A stretch of 64,000 nucleotides of DNA, from assembly GCF_014205835.1 (NCBI RefSeq), contig NZ_JACHCQ010000002.1:62001-126000 (forward strand), read 5' to 3'. Shown here piece by piece: positions 2,330-62,941 of this stretch. The translations under genes were made by a program, and so were the position numbers. The notes under the pieces are model-generated. The model had not been told where the DNA came from. It made no database searches and worked only from the letters and a program-made list of their open reading frames with translations. The stretch is from Pedobacter sp. AK013 (GTDB lineage: Bacteria; Bacteroidota; Bacteroidia; Sphingobacteriales; Sphingobacteriaceae). Positions within the stretch are counted from its first letter, which is position 1. Each line of letters begins with the position of its first letter.

Positions 2330-4303
2330 TTAATTTGCCTTTTTTAATAAAAACTCTGTCTTTTGGTTCTGGATGATCTTACTATAGAACTCCTTTAAAT
2401 AAAGGTATTCTTCTGGCTGATAAATAGCACTATTAAATTGTAAAATCTGACTCATTGATATGGTGTTTTCATTTAAACCAGTTTGCAACAGGTACCTTCC
2501 ACCGGCATTCGGTAGCGCAATGGCCATATCTTTCGGTTTTTCCAGCAATTGGTACTTTTCGGGTAAAAGTACATTGATGATAATACGCTCGTCTGACGCT
2601 GCGCCCAAATCAACAGGGTAGGTACGCTCGTTTAAATTAAATGGGTTTTTCGAAATGGTATTAATAAAAAACGGACTAAAATAAAACTGATCTTTATTGG
2701 CGCCGTCGTTTATGGTAAACTCTACCTCGTATTTTTCTATCAAAGAATTTTCTATACTATCCAAATTTGAAATTTTATGATCTAAGATCTTAATTCTGGT
2801 TAAGCGTTCATCGAGTTTCTCTACATATTCATCCGGAGAATTATATCGAAGAATTTCTTTGCGTTTACCGTATGCTGCATAACCCATGGTATTGGTAGTT
2901 AAAGTGCCGATAATTTTTCCATCGGTAGTCATTTTTCCGGTCAGTATATAACTGGTCGTATTTTTTTGGCTGGCTTTTAAATCTATCCAATATGATGGTT
3001 TTTTTAAATTAATTACCCTTCCTTGGTCGTTAATACAGCGTAACGGTAACAATCCGAAGGGTAAAAGTGGTTCTGTAGCATCCAATAAATAACTTTTATC
3101 CGCAATATTTACTTTGGCAACCAGGTAGTTAAAGTCGCTCATTACCGGATAGAGCTTATTTAGAGTGCCATTATCGCGGGTAGAGAGTATAACAGCCTCT
3201 GCATCTAAACCGGCTGCAGAAAGCGCTGCAATTAAGCTTAGATTAATATCTGCCACATTACCAGATCTATTTTCTAGTGCCTTTTTAATGTTATCTTCTG
3301 AATATTTTCCGTAATAATTATTCCATTTGATCTGTTTTTTGATATAATTATAAATAGATCTTGCTTTGTCTAAATCTGTTGCACTTCCTTTTGTAATTTC
3401 TGGAATGAGGTCTTTAAAAACATCTTTCCTTTTCATCTGATCGCCCAATGTTTTATAGGACGACAGCTCGTAATCAATATCTTCCCACGTTTTGGTATAA
3501 GACGTTTTAGCACCATTTAAATTCTGGACATCAGAAAGCTCAAAATAGATGGCTGATTTGAAGTTACTGGGTGCAGTCATGTTATCTTCCTCAATAAATG
3601 CCGGAATATTTTTCATCATGTAGTTGATTTTGGAGCAATCGATAGCTACACCCGAAAGCCTTAAACATTCCTTGCTCAGTTCTACTTTTTGGTCGGTAAG
3701 CTTTTGAAATCCGCGCAACGAAACATTGTAATTGTAAATGCCCGGAATATAAACCAAATATTCACTAATCACTTTTGGAATGTTGCTTTGAAATTCCCAC
3801 GTTTTGAAATTGAATAAGTTGGGCGATTTTAACCTATAACTATATTCAATTACCGAGCCTTCTTTGAGATTTGGAAGCGTAAACTTGGTTAGTCTGGTAT
3901 ATTTTGACCGGTTTTCGGTGAAAATGGCCTTTTTATCCATAACGGTTTCTACAAAATGACCGTTGATGTAATTAAATGTAGAAGCTTTTAAATCATCGAT
4001 TGTTTCTTCCCGAGATTCGTCTTTGTAGGTTGGAATAACAATGTTAGCTTCCTTAAAGCCTTCTTTATTATAGATTTTGATTTTTACATGGCGTTCAAAA
4101 ATCAGTTCTAAACTACCTGTATTATCATCTCGTTGAATAGATGCTGTACCAAATTCTTTTAAAACAATAGCATTGGCATTACTGTCTATTTTTTTTCTGT
4201 CGAATTCATAATCGTCATAGGTAATTGCGCCAAAGTTAAAGTTTTGAGCATGAGTGGTTAGCGATAGAAATAAGAGGAATAATATGGCTAATATTTTATT
4301 CAT
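2330..4303 (-). CDS. DUF3857 secreted protein, degenerate transglutaminase site
   Basis: 657 aa from the chosen start. A longer frame opens at 4366, but the ATG at 4303 begins a clear signal peptide (MNKILAILFLLFLSLTTHAQ), and a promoter-like sequence at 4338-4366 would place transcription start inside the longer frame. The protein follows its downstream neighbour in layout: DUF3857 domain, transglutaminase-like core, C-terminal beta domain. At the position of the catalytic Cys it reads SGNVADINLSL, and at the His position FNYLVAKV, so both catalytic residues appear lost. It is therefore probably a non-catalytic partner or binding protein in the periplasm or outer membrane. Its function is unknown. 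Confidence 0.83.
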   Translation of the reverse strand: MNKILAILFLLFLSLTTHAQNFNFGAITYDDYEFDRKKIDSNANAIVLKEFGTASIQRDDNTGSLELIFERHVKIKIYNKEGFKEANIVIPTYKDESREETIDDLKASTFNYINGHFVETVMDKKAIFTENRSKYTRLTKFTLPNLKEGSVIEYSYRLKSPNLFNFKTWEFQSNIPKVISEYLVYIPGIYNYNVSLRGFQKLTDQKVELSKECLRLSGVAIDCSKINYMMKNIPAFIEEDNMTAPSNFKSAIYFELSDVQNLNGAKTSYTKTWEDIDYELSSYKTLGDQMKRKDVFKDLIPEITKGSATDLDKARSIYNYIKKQIKWNNYYGKYSEDNIKKALENRSGNVADINLSLIAALSAAGLDAEAVILSTRDNGTLNKLYPVMSDFNYLVAKVNIADKSYLLDATEPLLPFGLLPLRCINDQGRVINLKKPSYWIDLKASQKNTTSYILTGKMTTDGKIIGTLTTNTMGYAAYGKRKEILRYNSPDEYVEKLDERLTRIKILDHKISNLDSIENSLIEKYEVEFTINDGANKDQFYFSPFFINTISKNPFNLNERTYPVDLGAASDERIIINVLLPEKYQLLEKPKDMAIALPNAGGRYLLQTGLNENTISMSQILQFNSAIYQPEEYLYLKEFYSKIIQNQKTEFLLKKAN

Positions 4304-51880: not shown

Positions 51881-52639
51881 ATGAAGAAAGTAATATTATT
51901 TATCGCAATATATACAAGTATAATTAGCGGATGCGCTGCTAGAAGAGATCTTGTATACTTTAGTAACCTGGCTAAACAAACCAGCGAAGTTAAGCTTCAA
52001 GGACAGGAAGTTAAAATTCAGCAAAACGACCTTTTAAGTGTAAGTATAAACAGTTTAAATCAAGAGTCGAATGTTTTATTTGCCGTTAATACACGAAACG
52101 CAAGTTCTGAAAACAATTATAAAGTAGATGGTTATCGGGTAAGTAAGGACGGAATGATTAATCTTCCTGTTGTAGGCAACGTTCGCTTGGAAGGTTTAAC
52201 CATTGAGCAGGCACAAGCTACAATATCGAAAGAATTAGATAAATATGTTAAAAAACCGGTAGTTGATGTTCAGTTGGTCAATTTTAAGGTAACAGTAATT
52301 GGTGAGGTAAACAAACCATCAACCTTCACCGTACAAGGCGATAATATTAATCTCCTGGAAGCATTAGGTATGGCGGGCGATATGACTGTTTATGGTAAAA
52401 GAGAGAATATTTTAGTGATCAGGCAACAAGATGGTCAAAGAGTAATGAAAAGGCTTAATCTAAACAATCAGGATGTGATGGATTCTCCATTCTTTTATCT
52501 GAAACAAAACGATGTGGTGTATGTAGAACCAGATAAGTCCAAAGCGATTGAATACAGTCCGAATACGCGCATTATGCCAGTAGTAATTGCTTCAATATCT
52601 GCTGTAGCAGTATTGATTACAGCTGTTCTCCGTCGATAA
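51881..52639 (+). CDS. Wza-like polysaccharide export lipoprotein
   Basis: 252 aa. The signal ends with IISGC-AAR, a lipobox, so it is lipid-anchored in the outer membrane. Residues about 45-135 form the polysaccharide biosynthesis/export domain (IQQNDLLSVSIN, YRVSKDGMINLPVVGNVRLEGLT). Residues about 140-220 form a SLBB domain (VTVIGEVNKPSTFTV). A C-terminal hydrophobic segment (VVIASISAVAVLITAVL) ends in RR, suggesting an extra membrane helix. It forms the outer-membrane pore for the polymer. The Wzc-like kinase follows after 24 bases. Confidence 0.93.
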   Translation: MKKVILFIAIYTSIISGCAARRDLVYFSNLAKQTSEVKLQGQEVKIQQNDLLSVSINSLNQESNVLFAVNTRNASSENNYKVDGYRVSKDGMINLPVVGNVRLEGLTIEQAQATISKELDKYVKKPVVDVQLVNFKVTVIGEVNKPSTFTVQGDNINLLEALGMAGDMTVYGKRENILVIRQQDGQRVMKRLNLNNQDVMDSPFFYLKQNDVVYVEPDKSKAIEYSPNTRIMPVVIASISAVAVLITAVLRR

Positions 52640-52663: not shown

Positions 52664-54952
52664 ATGCTTAAACAAAGTTCAATTGGTGGCGCAAAAGATT
52701 TTGCAGAAACTATGACCAGGTTTGCCAGAAACTGGCACTATTTCTTAATCAGTATCATTATTTCTATGGTAGCCGTATATGCTTTTTTATACATTACCCC
52801 ACCAAAATATAAAGTGAGTAGCACACTACTAATCTCTGATGATAAAAATGGTGCCGCAATGTCTAACAGTACCGCTTTCAGCGATCTTAATATGTTTCAA
52901 ACGGTTAAAACGGTTGATAACGAAATTGAGATATTAAGATCGAGAGACTTGATTTTTAAAGTATTGAAAAAACTAAACCTAGAAACGGCCTACTTTAAAA
53001 AAGAAGGAATTAGAGAAAAAGAGCTTTATGGAAAAACTTCGCCACTTGTAGTTACCGCTATAAGTTTAAAAAATGGTGCTTACAGAAGAAAAATTAACGT
53101 TTCTTACCTGGACGAAATCTCTTATATTATTCAGGATAGCCTAAAGACAAATATAGTGAAGTATGGCAATATCATTAATACTAAAGACTATGCGATTAAG
53201 ATAGATAAGGGACCAGCATATAAAAGCGAATTTGGCAAAATTAGACTTCAGTTTAAAAACTTATATAAAATGACAGAGGCTTATAACTTGGTTTCATTAA
53301 AAATAGTTCCGGTTGTTAAAGATGCCAACACCATTACCATAAGTTTGAACGATGTGGTTCCACAGCGGGGAATTGATATTCTTAACGATCTGATTGAAAC
53401 CTATAACATTAATAATGTTAATAATAAAAATATCATGGCCCGAAATACCATTAAATTTATCGATAACCGCCTAAAATACCTGGTTGCAGATCTTTCTGGT
53501 GCCGAGGGGGATGTAGAAAACTACAAACAACAAAACCGTGTTACCGATGTTAATATGGATGCCCAGATGAATGCTGCACGCTCAGGAGAGTATAATCAGT
53601 TATTGGAAGCATCGTCAGTGCAACTAAGGTTATTACAGTCTATCGAAAATTATTTCAAAGGTAAACAAAGTCAGTTTAACCTCGTTCCAAGTGCAATGGG
53701 CTTAAAAGACCCGATTTTGAATTCATTGATTTCAAAATTTAACGATCTGCAATTGGAAAGAAATAGAATGTTACGTACCGCTAATGCAGAAAACCCTTTG
53801 GTACTAAACCTTAACGAGCAAATAGCAACACTAAAAACCAATATTTTAGAGAACTTATCTAGTATAAAACAGGGGTTCGTTATTGAAAGAAACAACCTGA
53901 GCGCCAACTACTCTCAATTCGATAATAAAATTAAATCTGTACCCACCATCGAGCGGGGCTTATTGGAAAGGAGCCGCGAACAAAGTGTAAAATCAGGTTT
54001 ATATAAGTATTTGCTACAAAAAAGAGAAGAAACCGCTTTGTCGCTTTCTGCAACCGTTCCAACTTCGCAGGTGGTAGATAAACCGGCCTACAACACTACG
54101 CCTGATAGCCCTAAGCAACCACTTTTGTATCTGTGTGGATTTATTTTTGGATTTTTTGTACCTGCAGGAGCAATTTATGCCAAAGGAATTTTAAACAATA
54201 AGATACAAGATGCCAGTGCTATTGAGTTAACTGGTGCAAAAATGCTTGGCGAACTTTCTCATAACCAAGATAAAAGCACCATCGTTTTTCAAAAAGACAA
54301 CCGTTCTACAATATCAGAGCTGTTTAGGTACATCAGAATGAATTTAGGACTGATGTCTAACAATATCGAAAATAAAGTAATGTTGGTTACCTCTAGTATG
54401 AAAGGAGAGGGTAAAACATTCTTTAGTGTAAATCTGGCCACTACCTTAGGAATGCTTGATAAAAAAGTTGTTGTGCTGGAGTTCGATCTAAGAAAACCTG
54501 ACCTCTTGAATAAAGTGGGTCTAAAGCAAACCAAGGGATTAACCGACTATTTAATTGGTGAGTCTGTGTTAGATGATATTATTAAACCTACCAGTGTTTC
54601 AGATAATATATGGGTGATTGGATGTGGTCAATCGCCTGAAAATCCTGCAGAAGTAATGATGAGCCCTAAAATGGATCTATTGTTTGATGAACTGAAAGAG
54701 AGGTTCGATTATATCATTATTGATACCTCGCCAGTTGGCCAGGTGGCTGATGCCTTTAGCTTAGCAGAATATGCCGATGTAAGTATTTACCTGGTGCGTT
54801 ATAACTACACCAACAAATACCAGTTGGCCATACTGAAAGACATTTGTGAAAACAATAAGCTTAAAAATCCGATGGTTGTTTTTAACGATGCCAAACGGGA
54901 GAAAAGCCAAAAATACAGCTATGGTGGTTACGGTTATGCTATGGCAAACTAA
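52664..54952 (+). CDS. Wzc-like chain-length determinant tyrosine kinase
   Basis: 762 aa. There are transmembrane helices near residues 23-43 and about 490-510. Between them lies a long periplasmic coiled-coil region (Wzz domain). Residues about 560-745 are the BY-kinase domain with Walker A SSMKGEGKTFFS (near 577), Walker A' VVLEFDLRKPD and Walker B YIIIDTSP. The C-terminus YSYGGYGYAMAN is a tyrosine cluster, the usual autophosphorylation site. It controls polymer length and opens the Wza pore through phosphorylation cycles. It is the second gene of the locus. A long leader with twin hairpins follows before the UpxY gene. Confidence 0.93.
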   Translation: MLKQSSIGGAKDFAETMTRFARNWHYFLISIIISMVAVYAFLYITPPKYKVSSTLLISDDKNGAAMSNSTAFSDLNMFQTVKTVDNEIEILRSRDLIFKVLKKLNLETAYFKKEGIREKELYGKTSPLVVTAISLKNGAYRRKINVSYLDEISYIIQDSLKTNIVKYGNIINTKDYAIKIDKGPAYKSEFGKIRLQFKNLYKMTEAYNLVSLKIVPVVKDANTITISLNDVVPQRGIDILNDLIETYNINNVNNKNIMARNTIKFIDNRLKYLVADLSGAEGDVENYKQQNRVTDVNMDAQMNAARSGEYNQLLEASSVQLRLLQSIENYFKGKQSQFNLVPSAMGLKDPILNSLISKFNDLQLERNRMLRTANAENPLVLNLNEQIATLKTNILENLSSIKQGFVIERNNLSANYSQFDNKIKSVPTIERGLLERSREQSVKSGLYKYLLQKREETALSLSATVPTSQVVDKPAYNTTPDSPKQPLLYLCGFIFGFFVPAGAIYAKGILNNKIQDASAIELTGAKMLGELSHNQDKSTIVFQKDNRSTISELFRYIRMNLGLMSNNIENKVMLVTSSMKGEGKTFFSVNLATTLGMLDKKVVVLEFDLRKPDLLNKVGLKQTKGLTDYLIGESVLDDIIKPTSVSDNIWVIGCGQSPENPAEVMMSPKMDLLFDELKERFDYIIIDTSPVGQVADAFSLAEYADVSIYLVRYNYTNKYQLAILKDICENNKLKNPMVVFNDAKREKSQKYSYGGYGYAMAN

Positions 54953-55146
54953 ATCTACCTTGTTTTAAAAGATAATACCAACACCCTTTACCAATAAACG
55001 TCCCCGAACGATTTAATTCTGTTTACAAACAATAAAGCCTCGATGCCTAAACTTCAGTATCATTTAAGCATTAGCACCTTGTAAACAACTCTTAATTAGA
55101 TTGCCCATTTGCCCAAAAAGCAAAATAAGATTTAAAAATAAAATTG

Positions 55147-55175
55147 TCATGTAAGTGATATAGCGAAGCTATATC
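55147..55175 (+). repeat. 29-nt hairpin repeat, copy 1 (UpxY leader)
   Basis: TCATGTAAGTGATATAGCGA then AGCTATATC. The second part is a perfect 8-bp hairpin, GATATAGC-GAA-GCTATATC, with a stable GAA-type loop. It is the same as copy 2 at all but one position. Confidence 0.8.
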
Positions 55176-55232
55176 CGACGGACTGAATAAAGCCTTTTAG
55201 CATACAATTAAAAAAAGAATAACCGATAGCTA

Positions 55233-55261
55233 TCATGTAAGTGATATAGCGAAGCTGTATC
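55233..55261 (+). repeat. 29-nt hairpin repeat, copy 2 (UpxY leader)
   Basis: Identical to copy 1 except for one base in the right arm (GCTGTATC, a G-U pair in RNA). It begins 86 bases after copy 1 and ends 40 bases before the UpxY ATG. A single change that keeps pairing in RNA hints at selection on RNA structure. Confidence 0.8.
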
Positions 55262-55301
55262 AAATCGCCTAAAAAACCAAACTATAACCTCATCAAAAAA
55301 A

Positions 55302-55850
55302 ATGGAATCTACAATTAACATCAAACCCTCGTTCGCAAAAAAATGGTTTGTGATTTATACCCGCCCGCGTTGGGAGAAAAAAGTTGACCGCTTACTGCAA
55401 GAGCAAGGTTTCGAATCTTTTTGCCCTGTTCGTAATGTAGAAAATCAATGGGCTGATAGAAAGAAAATCGTTAGCCTTCCGCTTTTTACCGGATATGTAT
55501 TTGTGAAAATAGATGAGCGTGAAGGTTACAAAATCAGGTATACACTCGGTGTTTTAAACTTTATTAATTACATGGGCAAGCCTGCAGTAGTTAGGGATAG
55601 TGAGATTGAAAAGTTGAAACACATTATGGATACCTATAATGATGTAGACGTAGTGAGTTTAACCGGTGTTTCGAAAGGAGACCGTGTTCGGATCAGTAAT
55701 GGTCTCTTCCATAATCAGGAAGGAGAGGTGATCCAGATTCATGGCAAGCATGTTTTAATGTCTTTCGATCATTTAGACTGTGCTTTAGTTACCAGAGTGC
55801 CAATAAGCAACTTAACATTAACCGTAAATACGCAACAACATTATGTATAA
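55302..55850 (+). CDS. UpxY-family transcription antiterminator (NusG-like)
   Basis: 182 aa. The N-terminal NGN domain ([28 protein letters not shown]) and the C-terminal KOW region ([20 protein letters not shown]) are those of NusG paralogues. In Bacteroides, UpxY proteins bind RNA polymerase in the leader of the same capsule locus and prevent early termination. The placement, third in the locus and directly upstream of the glycan genes, fits. Its stop overlaps the dehydrogenase start by eight bases. The twin hairpins before it are a candidate recruitment or control site. Confidence 0.92.
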
Positions 55851-57141
55851 CGCTGAAGATAATCTGAAAATGACGGTAATTGGCCTTGGCTACGTTGGCT
55901 TACCGTTGGCAGTAGAATTTGCGAAAAAATACAAGGTATTTGGCTTTGATATTAACCAGAGCAGGATAGCAGAATTAAAAGCCGGATACGACAACACATT
56001 GGAAGTTAATGAATCTGAATTGAATGAGGTTTTAACATTCGAATGCACAACTTTAAAAGGCCTGTACTGTACCAATGAAATCGAAAAATTACGCAGCTCA
56101 TCGGTTTACATTGTTACAGTACCAACGCCTGTTGATAAAAACAACAGGCCGGATTTAACCCCTTTAATTAAAGCGAGTGCAGTTGTGGCTAAAGTTTTAA
56201 AGAAAGGAGATATAGTGGTTTATGAATCAACTGTATATCCTGGTGTAACTGAAGACGAATGTGTGCCCATTTTAGAAAAAGGATCTGGTTTGGTTTTCAA
56301 TAAAGATTTTTTTGCTGGTTATTCTCCAGAGCGCATTAATCCTGGAGATAAACAACATACCGTTGCCAATATCTTAAAAATCACATCAGGTTCTACTCCT
56401 GAAGCTGCCGAAAAAATAGATGCACTATACCGTTCGGTAATTACTGCAGGAACTTATAAAGCTTCGTCTATTAAAGTGGCCGAAGCAGCTAAAGTGATTG
56501 AAAACGCCCAGCGTGATATCAATATTGCTTTTGTAAACGAATTGGCAATGATTTTTAACCAGATCGGCATCGATACTTCCGAAGTTTTAGCCGCGGCCGG
56601 TACCAAATGGAATTTCCTGAATTTCAAGCCAGGCTTAGTTGGTGGGCATTGTATTGGGGTAGATCCATATTATTTGGCGCAAAAAGCACAGGAAGCTGGT
56701 TATCACCCTGAAATTATTTTAGCCGGACGACGTGTAAACGATGGGATGGGTAAATATGTGGCTGATCAGATCATCAAAAAAATGATCGCTAAAAACATTC
56801 ACATTGTGGGGGCAGAAGTACTGGTGTTAGGTTTTACGTTTAAAGAAAACTGTCCTGACGTGCGAAATACCAAAGTTATTGATATTGTAAGGCGATTGGA
56901 AGAATACAAAGTTAAAGTAACCATTCACGATCCCTGGGCAAATGCCGATCAGGCTAACCGTAACTACGGTATTATCTGCGAAAATGGCTCATCAAAAACT
57001 AGAAAGTACGATGGGATTGTACTGGCAGTAGCACACGAGGCTTTCAATAGTTTAAATATCACAGCATTGCGTAAACCAACATGTGTGGTATACGATATAA
57101 AAGCTGCATTACCACAATCAATAGAAACGGTTCGGTTGTAA
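55843..57141 (+). CDS. Nucleotide-sugar dehydrogenase, WbpO/TviB type
   Basis: 432 aa. Domains are an NAD-binding Rossmann fold ([16 protein letters not shown]), a central dimerisation domain and a C-terminal UDP-sugar-binding domain. The catalytic Cys270 lies in [13 protein letters not shown] and the lysine region in [18 protein letters not shown]. The sequence pattern is closer to the UDP-N-acetylgalactosamine/glucosamine dehydrogenases (WbpO/TviB) than to UDP-glucose dehydrogenase, so a UDP-N-acetyl-hexosaminuronic acid is the likely product. It would supply an acidic sugar for the exopolysaccharide. Confidence 0.9.
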
Positions 57142-61727: not shown

Positions 61728-62941
61728 TTAAAAAAATAATGTTTCTCTTTTTGTTGTTTGCCTACGTTTACGTAACAACATTCAACATCTTCATGACTGG
61801 GGTTTTTAGGATTCCGGCACCAATGGTTTTCCTGGCACCGTTAATCTATTTCTTCCGAACAGAAGAAACTGGCTTTCTTTATGGCAAAGAGTTATTTGTT
61901 TTCTTTATCGCTGCCCTGTTTTTTTATCTTATAGGCCAGTCAGATGTTACCGGTTTTTTTGCACTATTAATTGTTGCGGGTTGTTTTGCCTTGTTATTCA
62001 ATTACGTTATCGGTACCAATTTAAAGCGAATGAACATCGCAGTCGGGTTTTTCTTTGGTGTATTGCTGCTTTCTGGAATCATCATGTTTATCGATCACCA
62101 GTATAATATGGCAGCCATCCGTTCGCTTTTAGTGCAGGAAGATGTATTGCAGGCGCCAGCTGGTATTTCGACCACTATTTTTACTTTCGGCTACCAAATG
62201 GCTGCTTTAACACCGTTTCTAGTTATTAATGCCATACTGTTTAAAAGAAGCTGGCTAATTAACCTGCTCTTATTCGGCTTAGCGCTTTCTCTTATCTTCT
62301 TTGGTATGCAACGGTCGGTTTTAGTAGCTTTTGCAGTTGTAACGGGGTTATTTTTCTTAAGCTATTATAAAGCTAGGTCAATTTTAATATTCGCTGTGTT
62401 TTGTGCTATCTTTTTTATTGCACAAAGTTCAATTGAACAATTTTCTGAAGGTAAGAAGCAGCAGAATATTTTAAATAAAAGTGCCGAAAATGCGAGGGGT
62501 AAAGAAGAGCGTGGCGATTTGATGGGAGAGAACATCCAAATTATAACCGATTATCCTTTTGGGTTATTGTTTTATGGAAAAACCTGGAACGATGTAGTTC
62601 AGCACAACTTTGTTTACAAAAAAGGGCCTGTTGTAATTACTTCCCATAATGCTTATTTAATGTTCATTACTTATTTAGGGCCTTTGCTGGGTTTTATTTT
62701 ACTCATTTTATTATATCGAAAAGTAGGGAAGATTATTTTTTATGCCTTTCTGCATATCAAAGATAAGAAAAATGCACTCCTGGTCTGTTTAAGCTGTTCT
62801 TTTCTGGCCATATCCATCAATTCATTTTTCCATAACGAGTGGCTTCTGGCTACAAGTGGCCCTACATTGTTCCTCTATTTTGCCATTTTACAACTCTCTA
62901 AAATCAAAATGGAAGACTCCATTCTGCTTCAATACAATTAG
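61724..62941 (+). CDS. Wzy-like polysaccharide polymerase (membrane)
   Basis: 405 aa with about 10-11 transmembrane helices and one larger extracytoplasmic loop (about 240-305) containing EQFSEGKKQQNILNKSA. No Pfam-style motif is fully conserved in such proteins. The identification rests on topology, the loop, the SHNAYLMFITYLGPLLGF segment (typical of O-antigen ligase/polymerase proteins) and the setting among glycosyltransferases and a flippase. It probably joins repeat units in the periplasm. It could alternatively be a ligase. Confidence 0.75.
   Translation: MIKKIMFLFLLFAYVYVTTFNIFMTGVFRIPAPMVFLAPLIYFFRTEETGFLYGKELFVFFIAALFFYLIGQSDVTGFFALLIVAGCFALLFNYVIGTNLKRMNIAVGFFFGVLLLSGIIMFIDHQYNMAAIRSLLVQEDVLQAPAGISTTIFTFGYQMAALTPFLVINAILFKRSWLINLLLFGLALSLIFFGMQRSVLVAFAVVTGLFFLSYYKARSILIFAVFCAIFFIAQSSIEQFSEGKKQQNILNKSAENARGKEERGDLMGENIQIITDYPFGLLFYGKTWNDVVQHNFVYKKGPVVITSHNAYLMFITYLGPLLGFILLILLYRKVGKIIFYAFLHIKDKKNALLVCLSCSFLAISINSFFHNEWLLATSGPTLFLYFAILQLSKIKMEDSILLQYN

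Follow-up and report, generated by a model that had tools for sequence, protein, structure and literature searches.

UpxY proteins activate the capsule operons of Bacteroides. The way in which NusG paralogues encoded within operons are recruited was called unknown in 2020 (PMC7593976; this and the other PMC articles are cited from excerpts). For the UpxY of Bacteroides fragilis, which belongs to the same family (NF033644) as the protein considered here and acts in the 5' leader of the same kind of operon, the excerpt names no recruitment element (PMC7819879), and none is named in the open-access literature that we searched, outside which most of the original UpxY papers probably lie. Among the systems described, RfaH of E. 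coli uses ops (GGCGGTAGCGTG), the core of JUMPstart, which is a pause of the consensus type; its bases 3–8 serve RfaH, the C3:G8 pair closes a hairpin in the non-template strand, and the pause-inducing TG at positions 11–12 is common to ops and other targets (PMC5995543). The bacterial consensus pause itself is G-10 Y-1 G+1 (PMC9291695, PMC12288461). LoaP of Bacillus velezensis, a NusG paralogue in the antitermination of long operons, likewise needs a leader hairpin (dfn/mln), of the UNCG type and made of RNA, with no discernible pause; the excerpt describes LoaP as the only known NusG-like protein with specific binding of an RNA element (PMC12691694). Lastly, the JUMPstart RNA (RF01707) is a 5' UTR element of polysaccharide genes concerned with elongation control (PMC2864571). 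The element described here has the look of the docking site that has been missing, where UpxY would board RNA polymerase.

The window, a stretch of 64,000 nucleotides from Pedobacter sp. AK013, contains a polysaccharide locus in which a twin repeat is followed by seven genes on the same strand, extending to position 62941: upxY, ugd and five more (Table 1). As originally predicted, both copies of the repeat precede an antiterminator gene, upxY starting 3' of the two. The UpxY protein scores 138.1 bits against the NCBIfam model NF033644 (antiterm_UpxY), above its cut-off of 100, and is below the cut-offs of both the RfaH model TIGR01955 (77.1 bits, cut-off 144.5) and the LoaP model NF033641 (51.8 bits, cut-off 125). 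Its best solved relatives in a profile search are RfaH chains (E 1.3e-17) and, among the best 80 of 566 loci, its closest named relative is from Pedobacter (99%). In the AlphaFold model, built from 41 sequences (mean pLDDT 79.0), an NGN domain is accompanied by a beta-stranded KOW domain of lower confidence; B. fragilis UpbY is likewise NusG-like by circular dichroism (PMC9247905). A pattern search of 54900–55900 gave no intrinsic terminator-like site. The promoter motif of Bacteroidota is TTTG / TAnnTTTG, and no convincing match to it was seen by eye before the distal copy. The same genome has a second UpxY-family gene (G000:C1:95929, L203) with an element of a different subtype after its stop codon, preceding asparagine-synthase-like, glycosyltransferase and ABC-2 transporter genes.

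Both copies of the 29-nt repeat read TCATGTAAGTGATATAGCGAAGCT[A/G]TATC; their starts are 86 bases apart and they differ by one base, in agreement with the original prediction. Folded as RNA, each gives a GAA triloop on a stem of 8 bp (−7.3 kcal/mol), and the A to G difference turns U-A into U-G in the right arm of the predicted stem, so that the pairing is kept as had been proposed. A search with a 20-mer at up to 3 mismatches returns these two matches alone in the window, against 0.03 expected from shuffles, which bears out the claim that the window holds no other copy; the 6,065,644-base genome also contains no further copy at this threshold. In the 40 bases flanking the two copies only 14/40 positions (5') and 17/40 (3') are identical, so that the element alone has been duplicated and not the leader.

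Table 1 Features of the upxY locus (positions in the window)
Feature	Position	Strand	Basis or remark
Wza-like polysaccharide export gene, upstream	51881..52639	+	Pfam PF02563 Poly_export
Wzc-like chain-length determinant / tyrosine kinase gene, upstream	52664..54952	+	Pfam PF02706 Wzz, PF13807 GNVR, PF13614 AAA_31
Distal 29-nt copy	55147..55175	+	8-bp stem, GAA loop
Upstream box TGTAAGTGA, distal element	55150..55158	+	Conserved as TGTRASTGA in leaders with unconserved flanks
Core GCGAAGC, distal element	55163..55169	+	Commonest 7-mer in leaders collected by protein; putative mini-hairpin of the non-template strand, its first G placed at −10 by prediction
Predicted pause T-1/A+1, distal element	55172..55173	+	The −1 column has T in 75 and C in 11 of the 88 distinct copies
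Proximal 29-nt copy	55233..55261	+	One G-U pair
Upstream box TGTAAGTGA, proximal element	55236..55244	+	Same conserved box
Core GCGAAGC, proximal element	55249..55255	+	Same core
Predicted pause T-1/A+1, proximal element	55258..55259	+	Same column counts
upxY, UpxY-family NusG paralogue, 182 aa, NGN and predicted beta KOW	55302..55850	+	NF033644, Pfam PF02357, AlphaFold
UDP-glucose/GDP-mannose dehydrogenase (ugd), first gene after upxY	55843..57141	+	Pfam PF03721/PF00984/PF03720

At up to 2 mismatches the 20-mer is found at 16 places in 10/59 genomes, our own included. At fifteen of these a UpxY gene follows immediately 3', its product as little as 52% identical to that of the window, and the sixteenth, in G015, is inside a reading frame. 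The original prediction had looked to relatives for copies lying before UpxY-type genes, as these do, and among the several roles that it offered, recruitment of UpxY has the most support. Comparison of the relatives' leaders by eye gave the pattern TGTRASYGANNNNGCGAAGC, which occurs in 88/145 genomes of the genus and in 134/399 genomes and 12/25 genera of the family. The same pattern, with TGK at its start, matches 61/395 genomes and 36/196 genera of the class (reversed control, 4 matches).

Loci were also collected by protein alone, using five UpxY proteins as queries; the 80 named loci obtained, the best 80 of 566, belong to Pedobacter, Sphingobacterium, Mucilaginibacter, Desertivirga, Daejeonella, Arcticibacter and Chitinophagaceae. 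Within the 300 nt 5' of the gene, these best 80 of 566 have GCGAAGC as their commonest 7-mer, present on the sense strand in 68/80 and on the antisense strand in 0/80; in L317 it is out of context. Seven of the 12 leaders without it have a variant, GCGGAGC (L305, L323, L327, L333, L343, L346) or GCAGAGC (L337), such that the loop varies in 7/80 loci (GGA six, AGA one) while the GC arms stay. The spacer to the upstream box is one base longer in L323, L333, L337, L343 and L346, and L305 has an additional copy with a broken core arm. Altogether the element or a close variant is present, partly as judged by eye, in 74/80 UpxY leaders of this best-80 set, and by eye it is absent from the other six (L316, L317, L319, L321, L330, L341). 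Three of the six are from Sediminibacterium. A fixed, relaxed pattern gives 96 copies in 68 loci, with at least two copies in 21 loci at spacings of 72–177 nt. A distal subtype with GTAAGTGG in place of GTAAGTGA is seen repeatedly in leaders of Mucilaginibacter, between −184 and −254 (distal copies of L291, L295, L298, L299, L302 and L314).

Starting from the element, we analysed 160 of 197 merged places, comprising every one of the 72 listed for other genera and 88/125 from the genus itself. A UpxY-type gene, called with an HMM built from these loci (E < 1e-4), is found within 4 kb in 136/160. Three arrangements occur: the element precedes the gene in 53 loci (UP), follows the upxY stop codon in 62 (DN) and is on the strand opposite a divergent upxY in 21 (OPP). 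The remaining 24 (NONE) are all in genomes that do have a UpxY-type gene, 17 of them with the gene on the same contig within ~31 kb and 7 with it elsewhere. With a simple reading-frame caller (at least 90 aa), a same-strand gene follows the element in 159/160 loci, the exception being L096, where no same-strand frame follows, and does so within 300 nt in 158/160 (DN 61/62, OPP 20/21, NONE 24/24). In the UP loci this next gene is usually upxY, at a median distance of 44 nt, and the element is present up to three times. Of 20 proteins encoded after the element at 12 hand-picked loci, 15 have domains of the polysaccharide, glycosyltransferase or export kind (Wza, Wzc, ugd, flippase, glycosyl- and sugar transferases, SLBB, ABC-2). 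The remaining five are a phage sheath protein, a T4 baseplate protein, one asparagine-synthase-like and one glucose-dehydrogenase-like protein, and one without a match. Gene sizes suggest the same type of operon at the remaining element loci. Six convergent pairs of elements are 26–29 kb apart (L126/L127, L136/L137, L143/L144, L159/L160, L175/L176, L185/L186), with upxY at one end and, at the other, an opening with ugd- and flippase-sized genes (Pfam checked in L126).

The arrangement is nearly one per UpxY clade: on a tree of 134 UpxY-type proteins it changes twice, the minimum, compared with a shuffled mean of 56.5, with uneven clade support (95 for OPP; 52 for DN as one side of a branch, three DN rows being on a long branch). 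The letters of the element follow the same division, UP and OPP copies being mostly A..G (81/92) and DN copies mostly G..C (53/62), with 12 changes on the tree. Where a genome has both DN and UP/OPP elements among the fetched loci, the subtypes differ in 22/22 cases. Vertical descent alone could explain this pattern.

The unit that is conserved is a strand-specific element of 24 nt, TGTRASTGA - NNNR - GCGAAGC - YNTR, extending from TGTAAGTGA through the fourth base after GCGAAGC. In a gapless alignment on the core of 60 divergent leaders passing the relaxed pattern, identity to the window is 0.32 in the upstream and 0.30 in the downstream flank, compared with 0.90 in the box and 1.00 in the core, values that the pattern itself partly demands (TGK, core arms). 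Columns free of this demand are nearly invariant, A-9, T-7, G-6 and A-5 (core-aligned offsets) at 0.98–1.0 and both T-2 and the T at offset 9 at 0.95. Conservation stops at the fourth base after the core, that is, at the pause register described below.

Pairing was counted in 88 distinct copies from UpxY leaders, twins included. The two core pairs show no covariation. The first pair outward from the core, the third of the stem, alone covaries (A-T 33, G-C 34, G-T 20, T-T 1, A-C 0; Fisher 3e-10 with the kinship of copies ignored). Further out, pairs 2 and 3 are possible in 72/88 and 64/88 copies, many as G-U, and among the DN copies 56/62 leave pair 2 open and 54/62 pair 4. We therefore take the structure common to all copies to be a 3-bp stem with a GNA loop. 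A long conserved RNA hairpin is rejected as the unit on these DN counts, and the 29-nt hairpin of the original prediction gives way to the 24-nt element, its outer pairs being broken in most loci of this second clade.

These counts bear on the strongest of the alternatives, in which UpxY, like LoaP, would bind the element once it has left the polymerase as a hairpin of the nascent RNA, and would be carried from there to the complex. LoaP does work in this way with the dfn hairpin (PMC12691694), outer pairs 2 and 3 can form in the majority of copies, and the 8-bp RNA stems of the window copies beat most shuffles (3 and 7 of 200 were as good). Set against this are the unpaired positions of the DN clade, the DN element of our own genome, which folds as RNA no better than shuffles (z 0.42), and the end of conservation at the pause register. 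The element also lacks the UNCG type of conserved RNA hairpin, having a GAA or GGA loop and an outer stem that is broken in the DN clade; it thus differs from dfn/mln in its GNA loop, in the unconserved length of its stem and in its conserved pause register. No known RNA family was recognised: none in Rfam, JUMPstart RF01707 included, matches the window leader at E ≤ 1 or any of 14 loci at the gathering score. We regard recognition of nascent RNA as doubtful, and retain it chiefly for the longer RNA stems open to the window's own clade.

A loading site that acts in the non-template DNA is the version that we moderately favour, on grounds of register and pairing. With the first G of the core placed at −10, the conserved T falls at −1 and the box at −23 to −15. 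The −1 column holds the pyrimidine T or C in nearly all of the 88 distinct copies (Table 1), and +1 is A in 54, G in 23, C in 6 and T in 5, a purine in 77/88 with A commoner than the preferred G. The likeness to ops is one of setting and register: both occupy the leader of a polysaccharide operon, are strand-specific and have a NusG paralogue as partner, here a putative one, and both have G-10...T-1 with a short GC-loop-GC hairpin directly after G-10, register and hairpin being predictions for the element. In sequence the element is not an ops, the DN consensus GGCGAAGCTGTG having 7/12 letters identical to it in register. The loop has 3 nt (GAA/GGA) and that of ops 4 (G4–A7), there is no T6, the stem is closed by C3:G7 rather than C3:G8, and the conserved box at −23 to −15 is additional. 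With DNA parameters the 12-mers give no stable hairpin (0 and −0.3 kcal/mol). Mapped by hand, the ops contacts of RfaH become K10 to R21, H20 to L31, R23 to E34, Q24 to Q35 and R73 to L82 in UpxY, so that one of the four residues of the T6 pocket (Q24) is kept and three (H20, R23, R73) are lost, which fits an element without T6. The KOW domain of UpxY, unlike that of RfaH, is predicted to be beta.

In the mechanism that we propose, each copy would recruit UpxY to RNA polymerase on a polysaccharide operon as ops does for RfaH. The polymerase would pause in the register given above, at which the core's first G is at −10 and the conserved T at −1, and the exposed non-template strand would fold into a GC-GAA-GC mini-hairpin. 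UpxY would read this hairpin, with the TGTRASTGA box adding specificity through the upstream DNA or the just-emerged RNA, and would then replace NusG and carry the polymerase through the operon, by antitermination. Twin copies would offer two chances of loading. From its position, strand, co-occurrence and subtypes, the element is very probably a loading site for UpxY; an ops-like site of this kind is likely to be the best explanation of the observations as a whole. It would act in cis and, in some genomes, perhaps also in trans.

The co-occurrence and orientation of the element also bear on a second alternative, that it is a site in double-stranded DNA, part of the promoter or an operator of polysaccharide operons, and merely co-occurs with UpxY. 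In its favour, the element is 5' of the genes, and the window leader has few promoter-like matches of its own (6 in the 1-kb region, 3.3 when shuffled). Orientation is strict, however (68 sense, 0 antisense), the short median distance to the next gene in UP loci and their up to three copies fit such a site poorly, and the element is tied to both the presence and the clade of UpxY. In a sample of the genus (G000–G035) the strict element is found in 18/27 genomes with a UpxY-type gene and in 0/9 without one, and in a sample of 159 genomes of the class in 21/50 with UpxY above the cut-off and 0/109 without. Extending the class sample to the other 40 element genomes and to 40 element-free genomes taken by running handle number, UpxY was found in 37/40 and 10/40. 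The class-wide totals for NF033644 above the cut-off are 58/61 element genomes and 39/178 others, the three exceptions being G684, G720 and G759. Chance matches within reading frames do occur class-wide: the sole match of G543 (L218), a genome counted among the 61, and one of the two of G710 (L211). Examined from the gene, 16/30 class-wide UpxY loci have an element-like core beside it by eye and 14/30 have no element within ~1.5 kb. A double-stranded site appears very improbable to us.

Two further suggestions of the original prediction can be dealt with briefly. Autoregulation or processing of upxY mRNA alone, to which the element's place just 5' of upxY, in the window as in the 53 UP loci, would be suited, is hardly credible given the 62 DN elements after the upxY stop, the 21 OPP elements on the opposite strand and the 24 with no UpxY-type gene within 4 kb; as DN and OPP elements precede a gene other than upxY, the element is not a site of autoregulation only, and that role falls. 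A generic interspersed repeat that landed at the leader by chance is just as implausible for the genus and family, where matching genomes have 1–3 copies each, 136/160 loci are near a UpxY-type gene and the reversed pattern gives 1 match in 145 and 1 in 399 genomes, both in the same genome, G130.

The many scattered copies that would speak for such a repeat are thus not seen in the genus or family, but two genomes from other families do show them in part, and there a repeat may be the explanation. In G472 six of seven copies (L377, L378, L380–L383) are near-identical and dispersed and have in common a longer sequence that closes with a run of T; two of them, L378 and L381, are near contig ends, and the following genes, where present, include HsdM, Fic and helicase. 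In G708 all four copies (L393–L396) are near-identical with shared flanks, are away from that genome's UpxY gene and are followed by genes without a known function or by one for a secreted protein of the beta-propeller type. The G472 copies may be a repeat family or a xenogene regulon and those of G708 repeats or a regulon; both count against a strict link with UpxY.

Other copies without a linked UpxY-type gene may form regulons in trans. G531 and G562, which belong to a different family of the class, each have a single UpxY match that passes the cut-off; of their elements, five in G531 and four in G562, none has a UpxY-type gene in the 7 kb analysed with it. The genes near all five elements of G531 and one of the four of G562 include ugd-wza-wzc, epimerase, dehydratase and a large SLBB export protein, together with MBOAT, an ABC-2 transporter and, at a weak score, a methyltransferase. 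In G455 (L077, contig C44) twin elements at 4001 and 4077 are 100 nt before a phage-tail-sheath gene with a T4-baseplate-like gene further on, a cluster of contractile-injection type; the UpxY-type gene is on another contig, and UpxY may control this cluster in trans. Gene sizes in L106 (G385) are equal to those of L077.

With an element that has a predicted pause base, a predicted hairpin and letters matched to the paralogue, the targeting of NusG paralogues becomes directly testable, and the 24 nt provide a search pattern for UpxY regulons. If the UpxY loading site proposed here is correct, the ops principle of a pause combined with a non-template hairpin would also operate outside Proteobacteria, with another loop and another reader.
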